From NCBI RefSeq assembly GCF_001434145.1, contig NZ_AZED01000014.1, forward strand, positions 248,001 to 312,000: a stretch of DNA of 64,000 bases. The letters run 5' to 3'. This DNA is from Lentilactobacillus otakiensis DSM 19908 = JCM 15040 (GTDB lineage: Bacteria > Bacillota > Bacilli > Lactobacillales > Lactobacillaceae). Position numbers and translations under genes: made by a program. Of this stretch, positions 6,566 through 64,000 are shown piece after piece; positions within the stretch are counted from its first letter, which is position 1, and each line of letters begins with the position of its first letter. The notes under the pieces are model-generated. The model searched no databases. It saw nothing but the letters and a program-made list of their open reading frames with translations, and was not told where the DNA came from.

Positions 6566-6584
6566 TAAGTTAATTAAATTGGTT

Positions 6585-6700
6585 TATCTTCAGGGCAGGG
6601 TGTGATTCCCGACCGGCGGTGATAGTCCGCGACTCACGAGTGATCGTGCTGAGCTGGTGAAATTCCAGTGCCGACAGTAAAGTCTGGTATGTAGAAGATT
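6585..6700 (+). promoter_or_regulatory. FMN riboswitch (RFN element)
   Basis: The conserved core of the FMN aptamer is directly readable: ATCTTCAGGGCAGGGTG at the 5' side, then GATTCCCGACCGGCGG, GAGCTGGTGAAATTCCAG, GCCGACAGT and the closing GTAGAAGAT, which pairs with the first ATCTTC. It binds flavin mononucleotide. With the downstream hairpin at 6721-6753 it should switch ribU off when FMN is plentiful, by premature transcription termination. Confidence 0.96.
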
Positions 6701-6720
6701 AAATTTTACACGCTTTTTAT

Positions 6721-6789: not shown

Positions 6790-7374
6790 ATGGAAAATAG
6801 TGGTAAGCATGCACAGTTTGCAACAACTCGGTTAGTGGAAATGTCTGTTTTTGCAGGTCTTTCTTATGTTTTGATGTTTTTGTCAGTGCCGATCATTCCG
6901 ATCGTGCCATACATGCGGTTGGATTTAGCTGATATGCCGATTTTACTGGGGACCGTTTTATTTGGACCGGTTGGCGGCATGACGATTGCTGGTTTAAAAG
7001 CGTTGCTGTACTGGGTCACTACCGGTGCAGACGTGATTAACTTCATCGGTGTCGGGTCATCATTAATTTCATCGTTAGTCTTAATTTGGGCCTACTATTT
7101 GGCTGATCGCCTGTTTTCATTTACCAGCGGTTGGAAGAAGGCCAGTCTGGTCGTCTTGACGATGGCGGTTTCCTTGACGATCATTATGTCGCTCACCAAT
7201 TGGTTAGGCGTCATTCCACTTTACATGAATTTGATCGGTATGAAGCTGGGCTTCCCACTTGCCACTGTGATTTTATCTGGAGTGGTTCCCTTCAACTTCA
7301 TTAAAGGAATTGTCGTCGGGGCGGTCTTTTATCTGATTAAAAACAGTTTCCTGCCGCGCTTAAAGTTTCGGTAA
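6790..7374 (+). CDS. ribU: Riboflavin ECF transporter substrate-binding subunit
   Basis: RibU is the membrane S-component that binds riboflavin and works with the shared ECF energising module, which is not in this window. The 194-residue protein has about six hydrophobic segments, beginning with LVEMSVFAGLSYVLMFLSVP. The stretch LDLADMPILLGTVLFGP is typical of the family. The ATG at 6790 follows GGAGGAGAGG. An upstream TTG at 6763 would lie inside the riboswitch terminator region. Control by the FMN riboswitch strongly supports the function. No riboflavin biosynthesis operon is visible here, so uptake may be the main supply (inference). Confidence 0.95.
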   Translation: MENSGKHAQFATTRLVEMSVFAGLSYVLMFLSVPIIPIVPYMRLDLADMPILLGTVLFGPVGGMTIAGLKALLYWVTTGADVINFIGVGSSLISSLVLIWAYYLADRLFSFTSGWKKASLVVLTMAVSLTIIMSLTNWLGVIPLYMNLIGMKLGFPLATVILSGVVPFNFIKGIVVGAVFYLIKNSFLPRLKFR

Positions 7375-7431
7375 AATTCAGTAGTCACATTCAAAACGTT
7401 TCGTATATAATTAAATAGTGAGTACTCTTAG

Positions 7432-7470
7432 AAGCTAGGACAAACTTACCGGTTTGGACTGGCTTTTTGT
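7432..7470 (+). terminator. Hairpin ahead of ypbB, likely ribU terminator
   Basis: Arms 7432-7445 and 7452-7465 pair over 14 positions with an internal two-base mismatch around the loop TTACCG, followed by TTTTGTTT. It lies 58 bases after ribU and only about 20 bases before the ypbB start, so it could instead attenuate ypbB. Confidence 0.65.
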
Positions 7471-7484
7471 TTGGAGGTTTATAC

Positions 7485-8543
7485 ATGGAGTTAGGCATTC
7501 TCTTGTTAATATTTGGAAGCGATCGGCAGTTTCGCCGCGTCAAGGCAGTCAAAAATACCTTGCGTGGGCGACGAACAGTTTCCAATTTATACTGGGCATT
7601 GCAGTACGGAATGCTTGATTTTGTGGACGCATTGCATGGCGAGCAATTCGGTGATGACCAAAAGACGTTGACTGCATTAAAGTCACAGGGATTGGTTGAT
7701 GCCGATGATGCGTTTCAGATTCAGTTAACGCCCAAGGGGATTACTCAGCAGCAACAATACTTGAACCAGTTAATGCCACTGAAATATTTGGCGATCGCTT
7801 CCAAATATGACGTTGCCAAATTCATGCAGCGATTCAGTTTTGCTGTCCAAATTGTTTCCGAATATAGTTACGGTAACTCTAAATACTATCCGCAAAGAAT
7901 TGATTACTTTGAAGATCAACTGTTGAAACGTTGGTTTGTTCAAAATAAAGAAAATGATTTACCGAATCATTTTCACAAAGAGCTGAATGACTTTTTGGGT
8001 GATCTTGGAGATGATCACTTGGCGGACACCTTCACTGAAAGTTTGATTGGGCATCATTTTTCGGGATTAACTGCGGATCAGATCGCATCTCAACACCAAG
8101 TGCCGGCTACAATCATTGAGCTTCAGTGGCTTCAGCTGTATGGTAAGCTGCTGACCAATTTATTAAGTCTGCCGAAGAACAATGTCTTTTCAATGCTGAC
8201 AGCCGACTTGGAAAAGCCGATTGTTTCCAACAGTGCCAGGGAAACGTTTGATATGTTTCTCCGTCAGGGGGATGGAAATCTGGGACTGATCTCAAAGCGT
8301 CGTAAAATCAAATTGACCACGGTTTATGAGCACTTGCTGGAAGCGGCGATAATGGCGCCTGTTAAGGGGTTCCCATATCAAGCCCTGATTTCGTCAGATT
8401 TAATGGGCCAGTTACGGGCACATCAACCAGAAAATGTGGGTGACTGGAATTTTCAGGATGCCAGTCATGCAATTCCCAACTTAGAATTCTTTCAGTTTCG
8501 ACTTTTTCAAATCTATAGGAGCAAATCGACTGATGAAGATTAA
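7485..8543 (+). CDS. ypbB: YpbB-like helix-turn-helix protein
   Basis: A 352-residue protein encoded directly before and overlapping recQ, as YpbB is in B. subtilis. The family has a C-terminal helix-turn-helix domain, here around HLLEAAIMAPVKGFPYQALI and, further N-terminal, DQIASQHQVPATIIELQW. Its function is not known. The constant pairing with RecQ suggests a role in DNA repair or in targeting the helicase (inference). The ATG at 7485 follows GGAGG with good spacing. An in-frame ATG 18 bases upstream precedes the ribosome-binding site and is rejected. B. subtilis also has a ferredoxin gene here, which is absent. Confidence 0.8.
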   Translation: MELGILLLIFGSDRQFRRVKAVKNTLRGRRTVSNLYWALQYGMLDFVDALHGEQFGDDQKTLTALKSQGLVDADDAFQIQLTPKGITQQQQYLNQLMPLKYLAIASKYDVAKFMQRFSFAVQIVSEYSYGNSKYYPQRIDYFEDQLLKRWFVQNKENDLPNHFHKELNDFLGDLGDDHLADTFTESLIGHHFSGLTADQIASQHQVPATIIELQWLQLYGKLLTNLLSLPKNNVFSMLTADLEKPIVSNSARETFDMFLRQGDGNLGLISKRRKIKLTTVYEHLLEAAIMAPVKGFPYQALISSDLMGQLRAHQPENVGDWNFQDASHAIPNLEFFQFRLFQIYRSKSTDED

Positions 8544-9990
8544 TTTGCAAAGTAAATTAAAAAAATATTTTGGCTTTGACGAATTTCGACCGGGTCAGGA
8601 AGCAATTTTGCGGCATTTGCTGGGGAATCAAGACACACTGGCAGTTTTACCAACTGGTGGCGGGAAAACCTTGCTGTACCAGATGTATGGGGCTGTGACT
8701 CATCAAAGAGTCATTATTGTGTCGCCACTGATCTCATTGATGCAGGATCAAGTGAGCCGGCTGCAGTATTTGGGCTCCAAAAGAGTGGTTGCCCTTACTT
8801 CTGCCCTGGATTTTCAGGAGAAATCGATTATTTTAAATCATTTAAGCAATTATCAATTTATTTATGTTTCTCCTGAAATGTTGGCAAATGACCAAGTCCT
8901 GCGCAGAATTCGAAGCTTGAACGTTGGCTTGTTTGTCATTGATGAGGCGCACTGCATTTCCGAATGGGGGCCTGACTTTCGGCCAGATTACTTGAAGTTG
9001 GGCAAGGTTCGCCAGTTGTTGGGTAAACCATTGACATTGATGATGACCGCGACTGCGACGAAGCTGGTTCGTCGGGACATCATTGATCATTTGGACTTTG
9101 AAGACGGGGATGTTCAACAAATTATCTTGCCGGTTAACCGGCCAAATATCTTTTTGGCGGCCAAAATTTTGCCTAATCAACAGGAAAAAGATCAGACATT
9201 GATTGATTTGGTCCGCCAACTCCATGGTGCCGGGATCATTTATTTTTCCAGTAAAAGCAAAGCCGAACAGGCCGCAGTTGCCCTGACTAACCAGACTGAC
9301 CGTCGAGTGATGGCCTATCACGGCGGGATGGATAATCAGCGTAGATTCCACATCCAGCAGCAATTTATGGATGGCAATCTCGACATTGTCTGTGCGACCA
9401 GCGCATTTGGAATGGGCATTGATAAGGACGATATTCGGTTCGTGATTCACTATCATCTGCCGGCAAACATTCAAAGTTACGTTCAAGAAATTGGCCGCTG
9501 TGGCCGCGATCAACAGCCTGGCTTGGCAATTCTGTTATATGAGCCTAATGATCGCTATCTGCAAATGAATTTGATTGATAACACGATTCCAGAAGCCGGC
9601 TTATTACGGTATTTGTATCGGCATCCCAAAGCAATCACGGATGACGATCAGTTCCGTGTGATTCAATATTATTTTGATAACGATTATTCACTAGACCAGG
9701 CAGCCGCCATATTTGACCGTTCACGGCAACGCCGAATCACCGAGCTGGGATCGATGGTGCAATATATTTATCATGATGGCTGTCGACGGGATGAACTGCT
9801 TAAATACTTTGATGAGAAGTTATCGACCGAAGATCGAAATCAAAATTTCTGCTGCGACAACGATGTTGATTTCTGGAATCATTGGCAGGATTTTAATGAT
9901 AAATATTTGGATCAACAGGACGATGCTTCAAAAAGTGTGTCAAGAAGTTGGCATGAAGTCATCGATCAACTGTTTTTATCAAAAAATTAA
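8533..9990 (+). CDS. recQ: RecQ-family ATP-dependent DNA helicase (short form)
   Basis: A superfamily 2 helicase of 485 residues that unwinds DNA 3' to 5' during recombination and repair. Motifs in order: the N-terminal Q-type GFDEFRPGQEAIL, Walker A LPTGGGKTLLYQ, TSALDF, the DEAH box VIDEAHCISEWGPDFRP, TATAT, then in the second lobe AYHGGMD, TSAFGMGIDKDDIRFVIH and QEIGRCGRD. It ends after a shortened zinc region (FCCDND) and has no HRDC domain, like RecS of B. subtilis. The usual SQWGHDFRP after DEAHCI is EWGPDFRP here, and the last zinc Cys seems to be missing. Overlaps ypbB by 11 bases. Confidence 0.92.
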   Translation: MKINLQSKLKKYFGFDEFRPGQEAILRHLLGNQDTLAVLPTGGGKTLLYQMYGAVTHQRVIIVSPLISLMQDQVSRLQYLGSKRVVALTSALDFQEKSIILNHLSNYQFIYVSPEMLANDQVLRRIRSLNVGLFVIDEAHCISEWGPDFRPDYLKLGKVRQLLGKPLTLMMTATATKLVRRDIIDHLDFEDGDVQQIILPVNRPNIFLAAKILPNQQEKDQTLIDLVRQLHGAGIIYFSSKSKAEQAAVALTNQTDRRVMAYHGGMDNQRRFHIQQQFMDGNLDIVCATSAFGMGIDKDDIRFVIHYHLPANIQSYVQEIGRCGRDQQPGLAILLYEPNDRYLQMNLIDNTIPEAGLLRYLYRHPKAITDDDQFRVIQYYFDNDYSLDQAAAIFDRSRQRRITELGSMVQYIYHDGCRRDELLKYFDEKLSTEDRNQNFCCDNDVDFWNHWQDFNDKYLDQQDDASKSVSRSWHEVIDQLFLSKN

Positions 9991-53311: not shown

Positions 53312-53700
53312 GGTGTAAATCCTGAGTAATTGCGGTCGTATTGTTACGGCTGAGGAAAGTCCATTCTCGCACGGGCTGAGATGCCCGTAGTGTTCGTGCT
53401 CGGTGAAAAAATAAGCCGGGGGACTCTTTGTGAGTTACGGCGGATATTAAGGCTAAGGCTTTGCTATGCTTTAATTCCCTAAGGTGCCACAGTGACGAAC
53501 AGTGTAGGAAACTATGCTGATGGAACGCGGTAAACCCCTCGAGCGGGAAACCCAAACTTTTGGTAGGGGAGCTTCACACACGGTAAATGAACCAAGTGTG
53601 GGGGAGAAGTATTTCGATATTTCTCAGATAGATGATTACTACTTGTTATGTCGTCCTGGGATATAATAAGCACAAAACATGGCTTACAGGGATTTACACC
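53312..53700 (+). ncRNA. rnpB: RNase P RNA (Bacillus type)
   Basis: The catalytic RNA that removes 5' leaders from tRNA precursors. The terminal P1 helix is exact: GGTGTAAATCC (53312) with GGATTTACACC (ending 53700). Conserved regions are visible: GAGGAAAGTCCATTCTCGCA near the 5' side, the CR segments CACAGTGACGAACAGTGTAGG (in part) and GAAACTATGCTGATGGAACG-like stretch, and GATAGATGATTACTAC followed by GGCTTACAGG near the 3' end. No reading frame within it is real. Same place as in B. subtilis, beside gpsB. Confidence 0.95.
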
Positions 53701-59077: not shown

Positions 59078-59986
59078 TTGAAAAAATATATTATTTCCGA
59101 TCAAAACGGCCGACTGGACAAAGTCATCCCGGAGCTCGATCCGTCAGTCAGCCGTTCACGAGCTAAAAATTTAATTGATGATGGGCACGTCCACGTTAAT
59201 GGCGAAGCTGCCAAACCGAAATATAAGGTCAAACCAAATGATCAAGTTGAAATTGAGGATGCCAAGCCGCAACCCATCAGTTTAGAACCTGAGAACATCC
59301 CACTCGACATCGTGTATGAAGATGACGATGTGATTGTCGTTAACAAACCTCAGGGGATGGTGGTTCATCCTTCCCCTGGCCATCCTGACCATACCCTGGT
59401 CAACGCGTTGCTGTATCATAGCCCGCTTTCGACCATCAACGGTGAGTACCGTCCCGGAATTGTCCACCGAATTGATAAAGATACTTCAGGTCTATTGATG
59501 GTCGCAAAAAATGATGCAGCACACAAATTTCTTTCACAACAATTGAAAGAACAGAAAAGCCTCAGAAAATATGTTGCCCTTGTTCACGGCCGCATTAGTG
59601 AAGATTCTGGTGTCGTTAATGCACCAATTGGACGGTCGCCCAAAGATCGCAAAAAGCAGGCAATTGTTCCTGATGGCCGTCATGCGGTGACCCATTTTGA
59701 GGTCTTAGAGCGATTCGCTGATTATACCTTGGTTGCGTGTCGACTTGAGACCGGACGGACACACCAAATCCGGGTTCACATGAAATACATTGGTCATCCA
59801 ATCGTGGGTGATCCCTTGTATGGGCCTAGGAAAACGATTGCCGGCAACGGCCAATTCCTCCATGCGCAAGAGCTGGGATTTGAACATCCTAAAACCCATG
59901 AATTAATGATTTTTTCAGCACCACTACCAGAAATATTTGAACGAACACTTAATAATTTACGATTAAACAACGCGCTAGGATCTTGA
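59078..59986 (+). CDS. rluD: 23S rRNA pseudouridine synthase, RluD-type
   Basis: A 302-residue enzyme with an N-terminal S4 domain (RLDKVIPELDPSVSRSRAKN), the catalytic Asp in RIDKDTSGLLMVAKN, the motif GRTHQIRVHMKYIGHPI and VGDPLYGPRK. The start is TTG 59078 after GAGGGGTCGATCATT. A longer frame from an upstream ATG lies within lspA. Same place as ylyB of B. subtilis, upstream of pyrR. A promoter for pyrR overlaps its stop codon. Confidence 0.95.
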   Translation: MKKYIISDQNGRLDKVIPELDPSVSRSRAKNLIDDGHVHVNGEAAKPKYKVKPNDQVEIEDAKPQPISLEPENIPLDIVYEDDDVIVVNKPQGMVVHPSPGHPDHTLVNALLYHSPLSTINGEYRPGIVHRIDKDTSGLLMVAKNDAAHKFLSQQLKEQKSLRKYVALVHGRISEDSGVVNAPIGRSPKDRKKQAIVPDGRHAVTHFEVLERFADYTLVACRLETGRTHQIRVHMKYIGHPIVGDPLYGPRKTIAGNGQFLHAQELGFEHPKTHELMIFSAPLPEIFERTLNNLRLNNALGS

Positions 59987-60004
59987 CAATCCCGCGTTGT
60001 TTTC
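59965..60004 (+). terminator. Terminator of rluD
   Basis: AAACAACGCG (59965-59974) pairs with CGCGTTGTTT (59993-60002); the inner GGAT and ATCC extend it with a CTA bulge. The T run is short. The promoter of pyrR begins in its loop. Confidence 0.65.
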
Positions 60005-60011
60005 ATATTCT
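59983..60011 (+). promoter_or_regulatory. Promoter of the pyrR operon
   Basis: Perfect TTGACA at 59983-59988, 17 bases, TATTCT at 60006-60011. The -35 box overlaps the rluD stop and the terminator hairpin. The leader, about 60 bases to the pyrR ATG, shows no obvious attenuator. Confidence 0.75.
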
Positions 60012-60076
60012 GAAGAGGTATAGCATTTAATGTAATCATCAGGTACAAACGTTACTCAATTAAGGAGCTTTTACTA

Positions 60077-60610
60077 ATGGGAAAGATAATACTAGATAAA
60101 ATGGCTATGCAGCGGGCCTTAACCAGAATTACTTATGAAATCGTTGAAAAAAATAAAGGTGTCGAAGACCTCGTTTTAATCGGCATCAAAACGCGTGGAA
60201 TTTTTTTAGCAAATCGGATTGCCGATCGGCTCCAACAATTGGAAAATGTCTCGATTCCCGTTGGCGAGTTGGATATTACTAATTATCGTGATGATATCGA
60301 ACATGACGCGATGAGCAGTGATGTCAAGATGTCCAACAATAAAATCAATTTTTCCATTGAAGGGAAACGGGTCATCTTAGTTGATGATGTGTTGTACACT
60401 GGCCGAACTGTCCGGGCAGCGCTCTCAGCTGTTATGGATTTAGGCCGGCCAAAGAGCATCAACTTAGCAGTTCTGGTTGACCGTGGTCACCGTGAGCTCC
60501 CGATTCGCGCCGATTTTGTTGGCAAAAATATTCCGAGTTCTCAAAAGGAAAAGATCAAGGTTTACGTATCAGAGATTGATGATAAGGATGCTGTTGAACT
60601 CATCAAATAA
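60077..60610 (+). CDS. pyrR: PyrR bifunctional regulator / uracil phosphoribosyltransferase
   Basis: PyrR binds nascent pyr mRNA when UMP is high and promotes termination; it also makes UMP from uracil and PRPP. The 177-residue protein has the PRPP-binding [18 protein letters not shown], the N-terminal [14 protein letters not shown] and the LDITNYRDD hood segment, all intact. AAGGAGCTTTTACTA precedes the ATG. The first downstream gene starts 21 bases after its stop. No PyrR-responsive leader is seen here, so this copy does not seem to control its own operon by attenuation, or other pyr leaders in the genome are its targets. Confidence 0.95.
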
Positions 60611-60631
60611 TTCTTATTGCGAGGAGTCAGC

Positions 60632-61723
60632 ATGACGGAAAGATATTTAATTTTAGAAGATGGGTCCGCTTATGCTGGAAAAGCATTCGGATCGCTGGCG
60701 ACAACTACCGGTGAAATTGTTGCCAATTCAACTATGAATGGTTATCAAGAAATTATCTCCAATCAGATTTACCATAACCAAATCATTGTTTTCACCCAAT
60801 CATCCATTGGAAATACCGGACTCGACCAGAATGCGTACGAGTCCATTTTGCCGTCCGCAAAAGGGGTCATTGTCAGGGAGTACGAAAACCTGGCAACTGA
60901 CCACTTTAAGCGGATTTCTTTGGATCGATATTTAAAACAACATAAAATTCCTGGGATCTACGATGTCGATACCAGAGAAATTCGGCACCATTTACAGAAA
61001 CGGGGCAACATGAAGGCTAGCATCGTGGATGTTGCTGATGATCATGCATTTGATCAGCTGCATGCCACCGTTCTAACCAATCAGCAAGTTGCCCAAGTTG
61101 CCACTCCGAAGCCATTTCCCAATCCTGATGAAGGCGCAAACGTGGTCGTGGTCGACTTTGGTTTAAAAAGTGGTATCTTGAGAGAATTGTCCCACCGAGA
61201 CTGTAACGTCACCGTTGTGCCCTGGAACTTTTCTGCAGCTCAAATCCTGGATCTGGATCCAGATGGCATTGTCTTATCAACTGGCCCTGGATCACCAGAA
61301 AATCTCCCAACTTCTGTACTGGACATGATCACAGAAGTTCAGTCGCAAGCGCCATTGTTTGCAATTGGGTTAGGCCATGAATTATTTGCTTTGGCAAATG
61401 GTGCGAAAATTTCCAAATTAACCGTTGAACACCACGGTAGTAATCATCCAATCCGTGAAATTATTACCAACGAAATCTTTTTCTCAGGTCAAGAACAAGG
61501 CTATGCGGTTGATCCCAAATCGATTGATCACGCTCAGCTGTTCATTACCCATGTCGATTTGGTAAACGGCACTGTTCAGGGATTACGTCACCGAGATTAT
61601 CCGGCATTTTCTGTCCAGTTTTCACCAGATGGCGCGCCGGGGCCTAAAGACAGCGTTGGCCTCTTTGATGACTTTGTTGAAATCATGGCAAGAAGAAGGG
61701 ACAGCAATGACGATAGATATTAA
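60632..61723 (+). CDS. Carbamoyl phosphate synthase small-subunit-like protein lacking catalytic residues
   Basis: A 363-residue protein with the two-domain layout of CarA: an N-terminal domain (YLILEDGSAYAGKAFGS, MNGYQEIISNQIY) and a C-terminal class I glutaminase-like domain (from VVVVDFGLKSGILREL). The glutaminase active site is missing. The elbow that reads GICLGHQ in active enzymes is AIGLGHE (residues 244-250), with Gly246 for the Cys. The YHPE of the His-Glu pair is FSPD (330-333), so Ser331 replaces His and Asp333 replaces Glu. QNHGY is QEQGY. ATG 60632 follows GAGGAGTCAGC. It cannot use glutamine by the normal route. Coupled to the next gene. Confidence 0.9.
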   Translation: MTERYLILEDGSAYAGKAFGSLATTTGEIVANSTMNGYQEIISNQIYHNQIIVFTQSSIGNTGLDQNAYESILPSAKGVIVREYENLATDHFKRISLDRYLKQHKIPGIYDVDTREIRHHLQKRGNMKASIVDVADDHAFDQLHATVLTNQQVAQVATPKPFPNPDEGANVVVVDFGLKSGILRELSHRDCNVTVVPWNFSAAQILDLDPDGIVLSTGPGSPENLPTSVLDMITEVQSQAPLFAIGLGHELFALANGAKISKLTVEHHGSNHPIREIITNEIFFSGQEQGYAVDPKSIDHAQLFITHVDLVNGTVQGLRHRDYPAFSVQFSPDGAPGPKDSVGLFDDFVEIMARRRDSNDDRY

Positions 61724-64000
61724 AAAAGTACTTTTACTCGGCGGCGGTCCCACTAACATTGGTCATGAAAATGAACTGGATGCTGCTGCTTTTGAACGAC
61801 TCATGGCTTTAAAGAAAACTGGGGCCAAGATTATTTATTTGGATAACAATGCTTTTTCTGTCACCACAGAAGAAATCCAACCAGCTAACGTTTATGTTCA
61901 AGAAGTTAATTTTCAAAACGTTGTTAATATCATTGATAAAGAAAATCCTGATGCCATTATGGCAACAACTGGTGGGCTCAATGGCATGCAAATTGCTTGG
62001 CAGCTAGCTGAAAGTGGTGTCTTGGCATCGAACAATATTTCGTTGCTTGGGATTAAACCTGCCGATCTGCGGAAAGTTATGGACAATCAAAAACTTCGTG
62101 ATACATTAACAGAAATCAATGAAAAAGTGATTGCTTCAAAGATTGTTGCCGATGACGATGAAGCAATGGACTTTGTCAGAGAAGTTGGCTTTCCAGTAAT
62201 TGTGAAGCCTATGTCATCAAGCCATGATACTAGCCGTTTCATCTGCAATAACACCGATGAATTGGAAGACGCCTTAGATGTTAGTTTTAAACGGACGTAT
62301 ATCAAACGTTGTTCAATTGAACAAAGCATCGTTGGCTACAAAGAAATTGAAATGGTTGGAATTCGCGATGCCAGTGGAAATAAGATTTTAATCTCCGGTA
62401 TGGAGGATATGGATCCAATTGGAATTCACTCTGGAGATTCAATCATTTTTGCTCCAACTCAAACGCTCATTAATGAGGAATACCAGGCGCTTCGAAGCGC
62501 CACTTTCCGAATTATGGATGCCCTCAATGTGACGGGAACCTGTCATGTTCAGTTTGCTCAATCAAGGACTGATTCAAATTATTTTGTGACTAAGGTTAGT
62601 CCATTCTTCACACGTAACACCATTTTGGCTGCGAAGGCGACAGGGTACCCCTTAACCTACGTCTCAAGTTTTCTGGAACTTGGGTATAATCTTACCGAAA
62701 TCAAGTTACCAAGCAAATACAGCAAGTTTTTGGCGTTTATGGAGCCAACAATGGATCACGTAGTCGTCAAAATTCCGTTATGGCCATTTAGAGATATCAC
62801 TGACGTTGACCAACATTTGAATACATTGATGAAATCAGTTGGGTCGACGATTGGGATTGGTCGGACAGTTGAGGAAGCAATTATCAAATCAATGCACAGC
62901 TCCCAGTTCTCACCGCGGGATATTTTACCCAGTGTCTCAACCGTTGACGATGATGATGTGATTAATCAGTTAATTCATCCATTGGCCAGTCGAATATTAA
63001 TTTTAATGGAAGCCCTTCATCGGGGGTTCTCCATCGATGAACTCTCTGAATTGACTCAAATCGACCGTTTTTATTTCTATAAATTGAATCAATTGTTGAG
63101 AGCACAAGATTTCGTAGTCAACAATCCGATGTCACCACAATCCATTGAGATTGGCCACAAGTATGGTTTTGGTGATGGTATGCTGGCTGAGTTATGGAAA
63201 GTCAATATTTCTAAAATTCAGCAAATGAATGAAAACTATCATAATCACGTGACTTACAAAGCCATCGAGCCCAGTGCTGGTGAATTCTTGGAATCTACAA
63301 ATATCTTCTACAGTAGTTATGAACTTGAGAATGAAAGCCACCCATTTACTGACAAGAGCGCTTTAGTTATTGGACGGGGTGGTAATCAGTTGGGCCCTAA
63401 TTCGGCCGCTGATTATTACACATCCCAAATTTTGCGGGCACTTCACAAATCTGGTTATAAAACCATTATTATGAATACCAATCCAAACGCGGTTTCCCTG
63501 ACACCTCAATTGAGTGATAAACAATATATTGAACCGATTCAACTTGGAAATATTTTGAACATTGTGGATATTGAGAAGCCGGATGTCGTCATTTTACCAG
63601 GCAACCGTCATTATTTATCCAAACAGTTAAAGCAGTTCAAGAATTTAAATATTATTGTATTGCCGCCAGATCAGAAAGTTGCCACATACAATCAAAAGTA
63701 TGCGACGACTGCTGTCGATCTGTTTATTGAAGGTGACGAGGTATTACCGGTCACAACAATTTCCTTCGTTGGTAAAGATCAGCGTACCGATCTTCGATTC
63801 ATTAATGATTATAAAGAGCCGATGGATAACTGGCAGACTGACGAAGCCAAACTAATCGCTGACGCTTCAACGAATGTTGATACTCAAGAATGGCAAGGCT
63901 TAGTCCAGGTCTTGTATAATACAACTGGTAATTCTGAATACGAGATGACCGGGATTCGACCAGTTCGAATTACTGAGACGGCCTTCTTAACTAAAACGAC
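61707..64000 (+). CDS. Carbamoyl phosphate synthase large-subunit-like protein lacking catalytic residues (partial)
   Basis: Open to the window end (764 codons seen). The order follows CarB: Rossmann-type GGGPTNIGHENELD, first ATP-grasp, oligomerisation domain (ILMEALHRGFSIDELSEL, FFYSSYELENES-like), then a second Rossmann unit, VIGRGGNQLGPNSAADYY. The ATP-grasp glycine loop is gone: RPAFTLGGTGGG becomes KPMSSSHDTSRF (167-178). The metal ligands EVNPR read KVSPF (296-300). In the second half about 90 residues are missing between DVVILPGNRHYL and TGIRPVRIT (748-756), where EVNPR aligns with GIRPV. Conserved structural pieces (GIHSGDSIIFAPTQTL) remain. Overlaps the previous gene by 17 bases with AAGAAGGG upstream. 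Confidence 0.88.
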   Translation, partial: MTIDIKKVLLLGGGPTNIGHENELDAAAFERLMALKKTGAKIIYLDNNAFSVTTEEIQPANVYVQEVNFQNVVNIIDKENPDAIMATTGGLNGMQIAWQLAESGVLASNNISLLGIKPADLRKVMDNQKLRDTLTEINEKVIASKIVADDDEAMDFVREVGFPVIVKPMSSSHDTSRFICNNTDELEDALDVSFKRTYIKRCSIEQSIVGYKEIEMVGIRDASGNKILISGMEDMDPIGIHSGDSIIFAPTQTLINEEYQALRSATFRIMDALNVTGTCHVQFAQSRTDSNYFVTKVSPFFTRNTILAAKATGYPLTYVSSFLELGYNLTEIKLPSKYSKFLAFMEPTMDHVVVKIPLWPFRDITDVDQHLNTLMKSVGSTIGIGRTVEEAIIKSMHSSQFSPRDILPSVSTVDDDDVINQLIHPLASRILILMEALHRGFSIDELSELTQIDRFYFYKLNQLLRAQDFVVNNPMSPQSIEIGHKYGFGDGMLAELWKVNISKIQQMNENYHNHVTYKAIEPSAGEFLESTNIFYSSYELENESHPFTDKSALVIGRGGNQLGPNSAADYYTSQILRALHKSGYKTIIMNTNPNAVSLTPQLSDKQYIEPIQLGNILNIVDIEKPDVVILPGNRHYLSKQLKQFKNLNIIVLPPDQKVATYNQKYATTAVDLFIEGDEVLPVTTISFVGKDQRTDLRFINDYKEPMDNWQTDEAKLIADASTNVDTQEWQGLVQVLYNTTGNSEYEMTGIRPVRITETAFLTKT

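Follow-up and report, generated by a model that had tools for sequence, protein, structure and literature searches.

Why would a bacterium keep, beside an intact gene for the pyrimidine regulator PyrR, a pair of carbamoyl-phosphate synthetase (CPS) subunits that have lost their catalytic residues? The question is raised by a stretch of 64,000 nucleotides from Lentilactobacillus otakiensis (the window), in which pyrR (60077..60610, + strand, 177 amino acids) is followed by genes for a CarA-like small subunit (60632..61723, +, 363 amino acids) and a CarB-like large subunit (61707..64000, +). A reading made from the sequence alone had described a regulator joined to two degenerate, overlapping CPS genes, and this description is borne out: PyrR is intact, catalytic residues are replaced in both subunits, and the CarB start at 61707 falls inside the 3' end of CarA, overlapping its stop codon. 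Our analysis indicates that the pair is a real, conserved pseudoenzyme, catalytically dead, under strong selection and apparently transcribed as one unit with pyrR; a regulatory function is the most likely reading but is unproven.

Catalytic residues and domains of the two subunits

We aligned the window proteins to E. coli CarA and CarB and number residues as in the E. coli enzyme. Cys269 and His353 are the catalytic residues of CarA, with Cys269 as the nucleophile. In the window protein, which retains the CPSase_sm_chain domain (PF00988) and the class-I glutamine amidotransferase fold (PF00117), the codon GGG at 61367..61369 (+) places Gly246 where the nucleophile should be, within the motif GLGHE, and His353 is replaced by Ser. 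The same losses recur in a survey of 25 loci from 23 genera: Cys269 is Gly and His353 is gone in all 25, Q273E is found in 23, and S47I in 19. A second set of 20 divergent loci likewise has Gly (20/20) and lacks the His (20/20), and GLGHE is present at all of the best 80 loci among the 320 relatives that we found in a scan of a genome collection. E355D also occurs in active lactobacillar CarA and is not diagnostic. Because the window CarA still passes the profile cut-offs (354.2 bits for TIGR01368, cut-off 307.35; 406.4 bits for NF009475, cut-off 221), automatic annotation would label it a glutamine-hydrolysing CPS subunit.

In CarB, E299, N301, R303 and the Gly-rich loop 175-180 are the residues that handle metal, ATP and bicarbonate. 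The window protein carries E299K, N301S, R303F, G179R and N283H, and its Gly-rich ATP loop is replaced; the codon AAG at 62592..62594 (+) encodes Lys296, which takes the place of the metal ligand Glu299. Across the 25 loci, E299K and G179R are each found in 21, and N283H and R303Y/F in 20 each, while E215 (24/25), H243 (23/25) and D246 (25/25) are kept. The window holds the first 764 of 833 residues of this protein, with PF25596, PF02786 and PF02787; the contig (L003) places the end of the gene at window-equivalent 64208. At full length, CarB falls below its profile cut-offs (TIGR01369, 553.6 vs 1027 bits; NF003671, 530.5 vs 599 bits). Beyond about E. coli residue 640 (profile position 635) it no longer resembles CPS in sequence, and a domain scan recognised no second ATP-grasp in it.

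A predicted structure of the L. brevis CarB orthologue (predicted local distance difference test, pLDDT, 86; predicted template-modelling score, pTM, 0.89) aligns to E. coli CPS with a TM-score of 0.89 over the query length; human CPS1 structures are also among its fold matches, and its alpha/beta structure runs on to about residue 840. In this model, the overall CPS architecture is kept. The sequence-only reading supposed that such a pair might retain the allosteric sensing of UMP and ornithine while losing catalysis. Sensing through the allosteric domain is contradicted: MGS (PF02142) was not found in the three dead CarB proteins scanned. Given the residues lost, we infer that the pair is unable to form carbamoyl phosphate through the CPS mechanism. 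Catalytic-residue loss, replacements common to many loci and a common truncation are all evident from sequence, as are the purifying selection, the place beside NFACT and the persistence without active CPS described below.

Conservation, distribution and origin

The missing catalytic residues could mean that an old pyr operon has left a pseudogene in decay, and at one locus (L119) the dead CarB is spread over three open reading frames (ORFs), possibly through an assembly error. We rejected this account, which we regard as barely credible, on three grounds: conservation, substitution rates, and the comparison with active CarA. CarB is open and longer than 800 amino acids in 78 of the best 80 loci, the others being the broken L119 and L154, which is cut by a contig end. 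For dead CarA, dead CarB and PyrR, the within-genus ratio of non-synonymous to synonymous substitution rates (dN/dS) is 0.003-0.076 where dS is measurable; the L149/L151 row (48%) was left out, as it paired with the active CarA of L149. Many dS values are saturated and yield no ratio, and our main evidence is the comparison of amino-acid identities. In 19/19 same-species pairs from four genera, identity is higher for dead than for active CarA, by 0.5-25 points; these comparisons are not independent of one another, and in G023 the active CarA (55% to two congeners) is perhaps not orthologous to theirs.

In Lactiplantibacillus (n 15) and Levilactobacillus (n 17), the mean within-genus identity of dead CarA is 96% and exceeds that of PyrR, RluD, LspA, Fhs, NFACT and dead CarB. 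Secundilactobacillus differs, with PyrR above dead CarA (87.7 vs 83.0%). In each of the six genera compared, conservation is lower in dead CarB than in dead CarA. Strong constraint is shown for the main group only, since the divergent dead CarA proteins share no more than about 30-44% identity with the window copy. Within dead CarA, residues 133-168, a linker around HAFDQLxAxVLTNQQV...NPG, are more conserved than in active CarA in our sample and are a candidate interaction surface.

How widespread is the pair? Our sample comprised 151 genomes from 40 Lactobacillaceae genera. We took the best CarA match from one genome in 35 of the 40 genera, with some second loci (40 loci, 36 genomes); 24 of these 40 loci have the Cys-to-Gly CarA and, with the window, represent 23 genera. 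Among the 40 CarA proteins of 27 genomes that cover the remaining genera and the second or low-scoring matches, 20 are divergent and Gly-type, and the other 20 have both Cys and His. The divergent proteins add nine genera (g4, g9, g10, g14, g21, g27, g35, g37 and g40), bringing dead CarA to at least 32 of 40 genera. The number becomes 33 with L049 (g17), which has GLGY instead of GLGHE and, in its C-terminal QFDPEAGPG, has lost the His too; read by eye, it was left out of the stricter count. L049 lies in genome G017 together with a full-length, degenerate CarB of 1056 amino acids, between rluD and NFACT. Dead CarA was not seen in g12, g13, g25, g30 and g31 (one genome each), g29 (five) or g33 (three). 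The best 80 loci come from Lactiplantibacillus, Secundilactobacillus, Paucilactobacillus, Levilactobacillus, Limosilactobacillus, Pediococcus and other lactobacilli.

In a dead-CarA profile search (395 genomes), the listed genomes of other Lactobacillales families gave one match each at E 1e-60, none above 554.5 bits. On the same profile, active lactobacillar CarA proteins score up to 565 bits and a verified dead one (G026) scores 562, with much lower scores for the divergent dead proteins; restriction to Lactobacillaceae is not established by this search. A dead CPS is not described in the open-access literature that we searched.

A single origin of dead CarA is compatible with our trees, in which branches are long, but is not proven. 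In a first quick CarA tree, L054 (G022) fell among active sequences, and an approximately unbiased (AU) test of one clade gave p 0.513. With the 20 divergent loci included, 47 dead rows form one clade (SH-like approximate likelihood-ratio test, SH-aLRT, 96), with L054 again outside; holding all 48 dead rows together gave a likelihood above that of the free quick search (p 0.752). L054, which pairs a Gly-type CarA with a CarB of 643 amino acids beside PyrR, is possibly an independent conversion.

Two other loci look, from their sequences, like less advanced states. L044 combines a Gly-type CarA with a CarB of 1059 amino acids that has an MGS domain. At L063 (G033, 6956-9186), a permease gene (PF00860), CarA and CarB stand before NFACT, and the CPS at this same site is degenerate in a different way: CarA keeps its Cys and has His353L, and CarB has E299A and N301K. 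This CarA is the only PF00988 match in G033, yet PyrB is present. G033 is one of the three g33 genomes, and L063 was counted among the 16 active rows of the residue comparison and the trees.

The proposed PyrR link and its rivals

In the window, the gene layout is consistent with a three-gene transcription unit of pyrR, dead CarA and dead CarB. The sequence-only reading gave these genes a strong shared promoter. One apparent transcription unit is indeed seen; the promoter-like site itself (TTGACA-17-TATTCT, 59983..60011, +), which matches the consensus at 10 of 12 positions, is weak on its own, with 16 such sites found in the region against 12.1 expected. Its -35 box lies in the loop of the terminator-like hairpin of rluD (59965..60006, +; the fold of 59955-60010 has -15.3 kcal/mol, z -3.7), and a 13-pair terminator-like hairpin stands directly 3' of CarB, outside the window end. 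As had been noted from the sequence, no attenuator is seen: an Rfam search of the pyrR leader found no PyrR element. Also as noted, pyrB, pyrC and active carAB are not at this locus; all are present elsewhere in the same genome, on contig C4, with a PyrR RNA element before pyrB. A second element sits upstream of a nucleobase permease gene. At L004:9747-13870 of this genome, active carAB is divergent from pyrB-pyrC, with the first of these elements before pyrB; its active CarB has 1021 amino acids and no match to the MGS domain.

The window PyrR passes the PyrR equivalog profile NF003548 (267.5 bits, cut-off 218), contains the PRPP (phosphoribosyl pyrophosphate) loop and has solved relatives in 1NON and 1A3C. 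No second PyrR was found in this genome at a threshold of E 1e-20; as the only copy, it must also do the classical job, and the predicted elements before pyrB and the permease gene are candidate binding sites for it. Elsewhere in the window we recognised an FMN riboswitch (6582-6703) and a class B RNase P RNA (53318-53691), both ordinary.

The position of the pair is well kept. In the best 80 loci, rluD (79/80) and lspA (78/80; L114 begins at a contig end) come before dead CarA, and NFACT lies 3' on the opposite strand, inside the sequence examined, in 59/80; the 21 loci without it include ten from Lactiplantibacillus and several on short contigs. At L045, L046, L057 and L061, the NFACT neighbourhood holds pyrB-pyrC-active CarA-active CarB, so that the dead pair occupies, as far as gene order tells, the NFACT-side position of complete operons. 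The pair adjoins pyrR in 60/80 (counting L118 and L125, whose CarA ORFs are called too long). Of the 20 divergent loci, 11 have PyrR within 70 nucleotides, 6 have a single permease gene in between and 3 have PyrR at a distance (proximity at L232 and L243 was judged by coordinates); L221, L233 and L245 read pyrR-permease (PF00860)-dead CarA-CarB. In total, pyrR is adjacent or one permease away at 77 of 100 dead loci (60/80 plus 17/20). Unlike the window, the dead loci of G010 and G022 have a PyrR RNA element immediately 5' of pyrR; so does G044, where CarA is dead by score alone.

The pair is also retained where there is no active CPS to serve. In 17 of the 151 genomes, checked by sequence, PF00988 matches nothing but a dead CarA, and PyrB is not found above the cut-off: G009, G013, G015, G024, G027, G034, G048, G051, G052, G060, G083, G084 (apparently L. 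brevis), G106, G110, G131, G133 and G135. G013 has a sub-cut-off match to aspartate carbamoyltransferase only (140 bits), and three of the 17 (G052, G083, G110) have an intact CarB ATP loop. PyrR is present in all 17. PyrR RNA elements (E up to 0.01) were found in 9/9 searched, weakly in G060, where no nucleobase permease gene is downstream. We followed six such elements in L. brevis and G051: four are upstream of a nucleobase permease gene (two of them more than 500 nucleotides away, and one permease split over two ORFs), and two are not. With the elements linked to permeases in this way, dead CarA is kept where pyrimidine uptake seems to be the remaining task of PyrR. Five further genomes (G028, G035, G043, G047, G102) have PyrB but no CarA other than a dead one, and they would need some other supply of carbamoyl phosphate. 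The suggestion that the pair passes its signal to an authentic CPS fails as a general role, given the 17 genomes that keep dead CarA with neither another CarA nor PyrB.

We propose, tentatively, that the unit is a remnant of an ancestral Lactobacillaceae pyr operon and that the pair is a regulatory partner of PyrR. pyrB and pyrC would have left the site, with active CPS encoded elsewhere or lost, and the remaining CPS genes would have become a catalytically dead, strongly conserved protein pair. The two proteins would form a CPS-like complex, whose rebuilt first ATP-grasp site may bind a nucleotide or another anion but not turn it over. As part of a PyrR-centred control of pyrimidine metabolism, the complex would act on the pyr operon where it is present and on nucleobase permeases where the pathway has been lost.

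Several observations weigh against this proposal. The sequence-only reading expected pyrR and the Cys-less CarA to be conserved together; adjacency at 60/80 loci agrees with this, and the 20/80 that keep the pair without adjacent pyrR (5 from Paucilactobacillus, 15 from Limosilactobacillus and relatives) do not. In these, PyrR is found beside pyrB (L167 and L073 of Paucilactobacillus), beside active carAB (L153) or elsewhere (L168, G005), and mean dead-CarA identity in Paucilactobacillus and Limosilactobacillus is still 85%. With the distant PyrR of G027, G037 and G098, 23 of 100 dead loci have no pyrR nearby. Adjacency is also what the ancestral order would predict, since pyrR heads complete pyr operons too, and the link to PyrR may be inherited position only. 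Co-occurrence carries little weight, as PyrR is nearly universal (145/151 genomes), and in one genome with a degenerate CPS, G017 (87% complete), PyrR was not found. The replacement of R303 on the bicarbonate side and of the metal ligand E299 argues against bicarbonate binding of the ancestral type, and that of S47, Q273 and N311 in the glutamine pocket against glutamine sensing. The predicted structure of dead CarA, with a mean pLDDT of 69, is too poor to use. Finally, the CarB ATP loop is intact at six of the 20 divergent loci (L231-L233 and L243 in g14, L245 and L247 in g21), where a dead glutaminase stands beside SIGGTGGG or TLGGTGGG; in these two genera the residues show only the glutaminase to be dead, and the pairs are perhaps ammonia-dependent or half-dead CPS enzymes.

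The loci lacking a nearby pyrR, and the persistence of the pair without active CarA or PyrB, would be explained if the pair served as a regulator or scaffold independently of PyrR, for example with another enzyme or with RNA, with pyrR adjacency left over from the ancestral order. We consider this a possible alternative, close behind the PyrR-linked reading. It is opposed, weakly in view of how common PyrR is, by the presence of PyrR in every sequence-checked dead-CPS genome of the 151 other than the incomplete G017, and by the five PyrR-less g29 genomes, whose CarA proteins are all Cys-type (8/8). In the sampled genomes of g12, g13, g25, g30, g31 and g33 (G123, G097) that have no dead CarA, PyrR is near pyrB. 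It is improbable that the dead subunits join active ones and, as dominant-negative partners, lower or adjust the output of carbamoyl phosphate: many genomes have two or more CarA, and the subunit fold, oligomerisation domain (PF02787) and architecture are kept, but as a general role this is contradicted by the same 17 genomes. Slightly less probable still is a new enzyme with other chemistry on the CPS scaffold. The replacements are specific and common to genera rather than random, and g14 and g21 keep the CarB ATP loop; in the window and its closer relatives, however, the Cys, His, Gly-rich ATP loop and first-half metal ligands are gone and no second ATP-grasp is recognised.

Whichever role applies, a pseudoenzyme pair in most of the sampled Lactobacillaceae genera, under constraint above that of the active copy where the two were compared, suggests that bacteria of industrial use have a function that has gone unrecognised. 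Species with the dead copy only, L. brevis among them, may be wrongly credited with carbamoyl-phosphate synthesis.

Comparison with known systems

The closest known counterpart is the pyrR2 locus of L. plantarum, which lies at the same site as the window pyrR and has the same order, rluD-pyrR-dead CarA-dead CarB (L094). L. plantarum (L094, G151) has two PyrR proteins, 65% identical, one beside pyrB-pyrC and the other beside the dead CPS, whereas the window genome has no second PyrR. The L. plantarum operon name pyrR1BCAa1Ab1DFE suggests that a second set of CPS genes had already been noticed, and the primary PyrR2 paper reportedly tested the pyrR2 gene and not the CPS pair. Because the other PyrR adjoins pyrB-pyrC, we take the one beside the dead CPS to be PyrR2. 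In a transcriptome study, lp_2704 is pyrR1, lp_1782 is pyrR2 and lp_2700 is carB (large subunit 2) (PMC7911632); according to another study, the pyr operon is under the control of PyrR1 in response to pyrimidines and of PyrR2 in response to inorganic carbon (PMC3582564). That a dead pair derived from a bicarbonate-using enzyme should adjoin the inorganic-carbon regulator is suggestive, but its bicarbonate and metal residues are replaced. Under the PyrR-linked proposal, the pair would tune the pyr response of L. plantarum to inorganic carbon through PyrR2, which makes it a concrete candidate for how PyrR2 could respond to CO2 or bicarbonate. By likeness to this L. plantarum report, PyrR2-type CO2/HCO3- control is a candidate for the window species as well. 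A bolder version, which we think unlikely, is that, early in the history of Lactobacillaceae, a whole CPS became a signal receiver that lacks catalysis and works with PyrR, a nucleotide or inorganic-carbon switch that in L. plantarum would be the missing CO2 sensor of PyrR2.

The pair resembles glutamine-dependent CPS (CarAB / PyrAA-PyrAB) in its fold, the domain order of its first half, its overlapping genes and its oligomerisation domain. Unlike that enzyme, it has no nucleophile, no first-half metal or ATP-loop residues, no recognisable second ATP-grasp and no MGS domain. In mammalian CPS1, the glutaminase domain lacks the Cys and the synthetase is active and ammonia-dependent; the dead pair has likewise lost the glutaminase Cys but, unlike CPS1, has lost the synthetase sites too. 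In Bacillus-type pyr operons, the order is pyrR-pyrP-pyrB-pyrC-pyrAA-pyrAB-... The window differs in keeping only pyrR and the dead CPS, and its leader lacks a PyrR RNA element. The likeness lies in the loci with pyrR-permease-dead CarA-CarB and in the active pyr genes that lie beside NFACT elsewhere.

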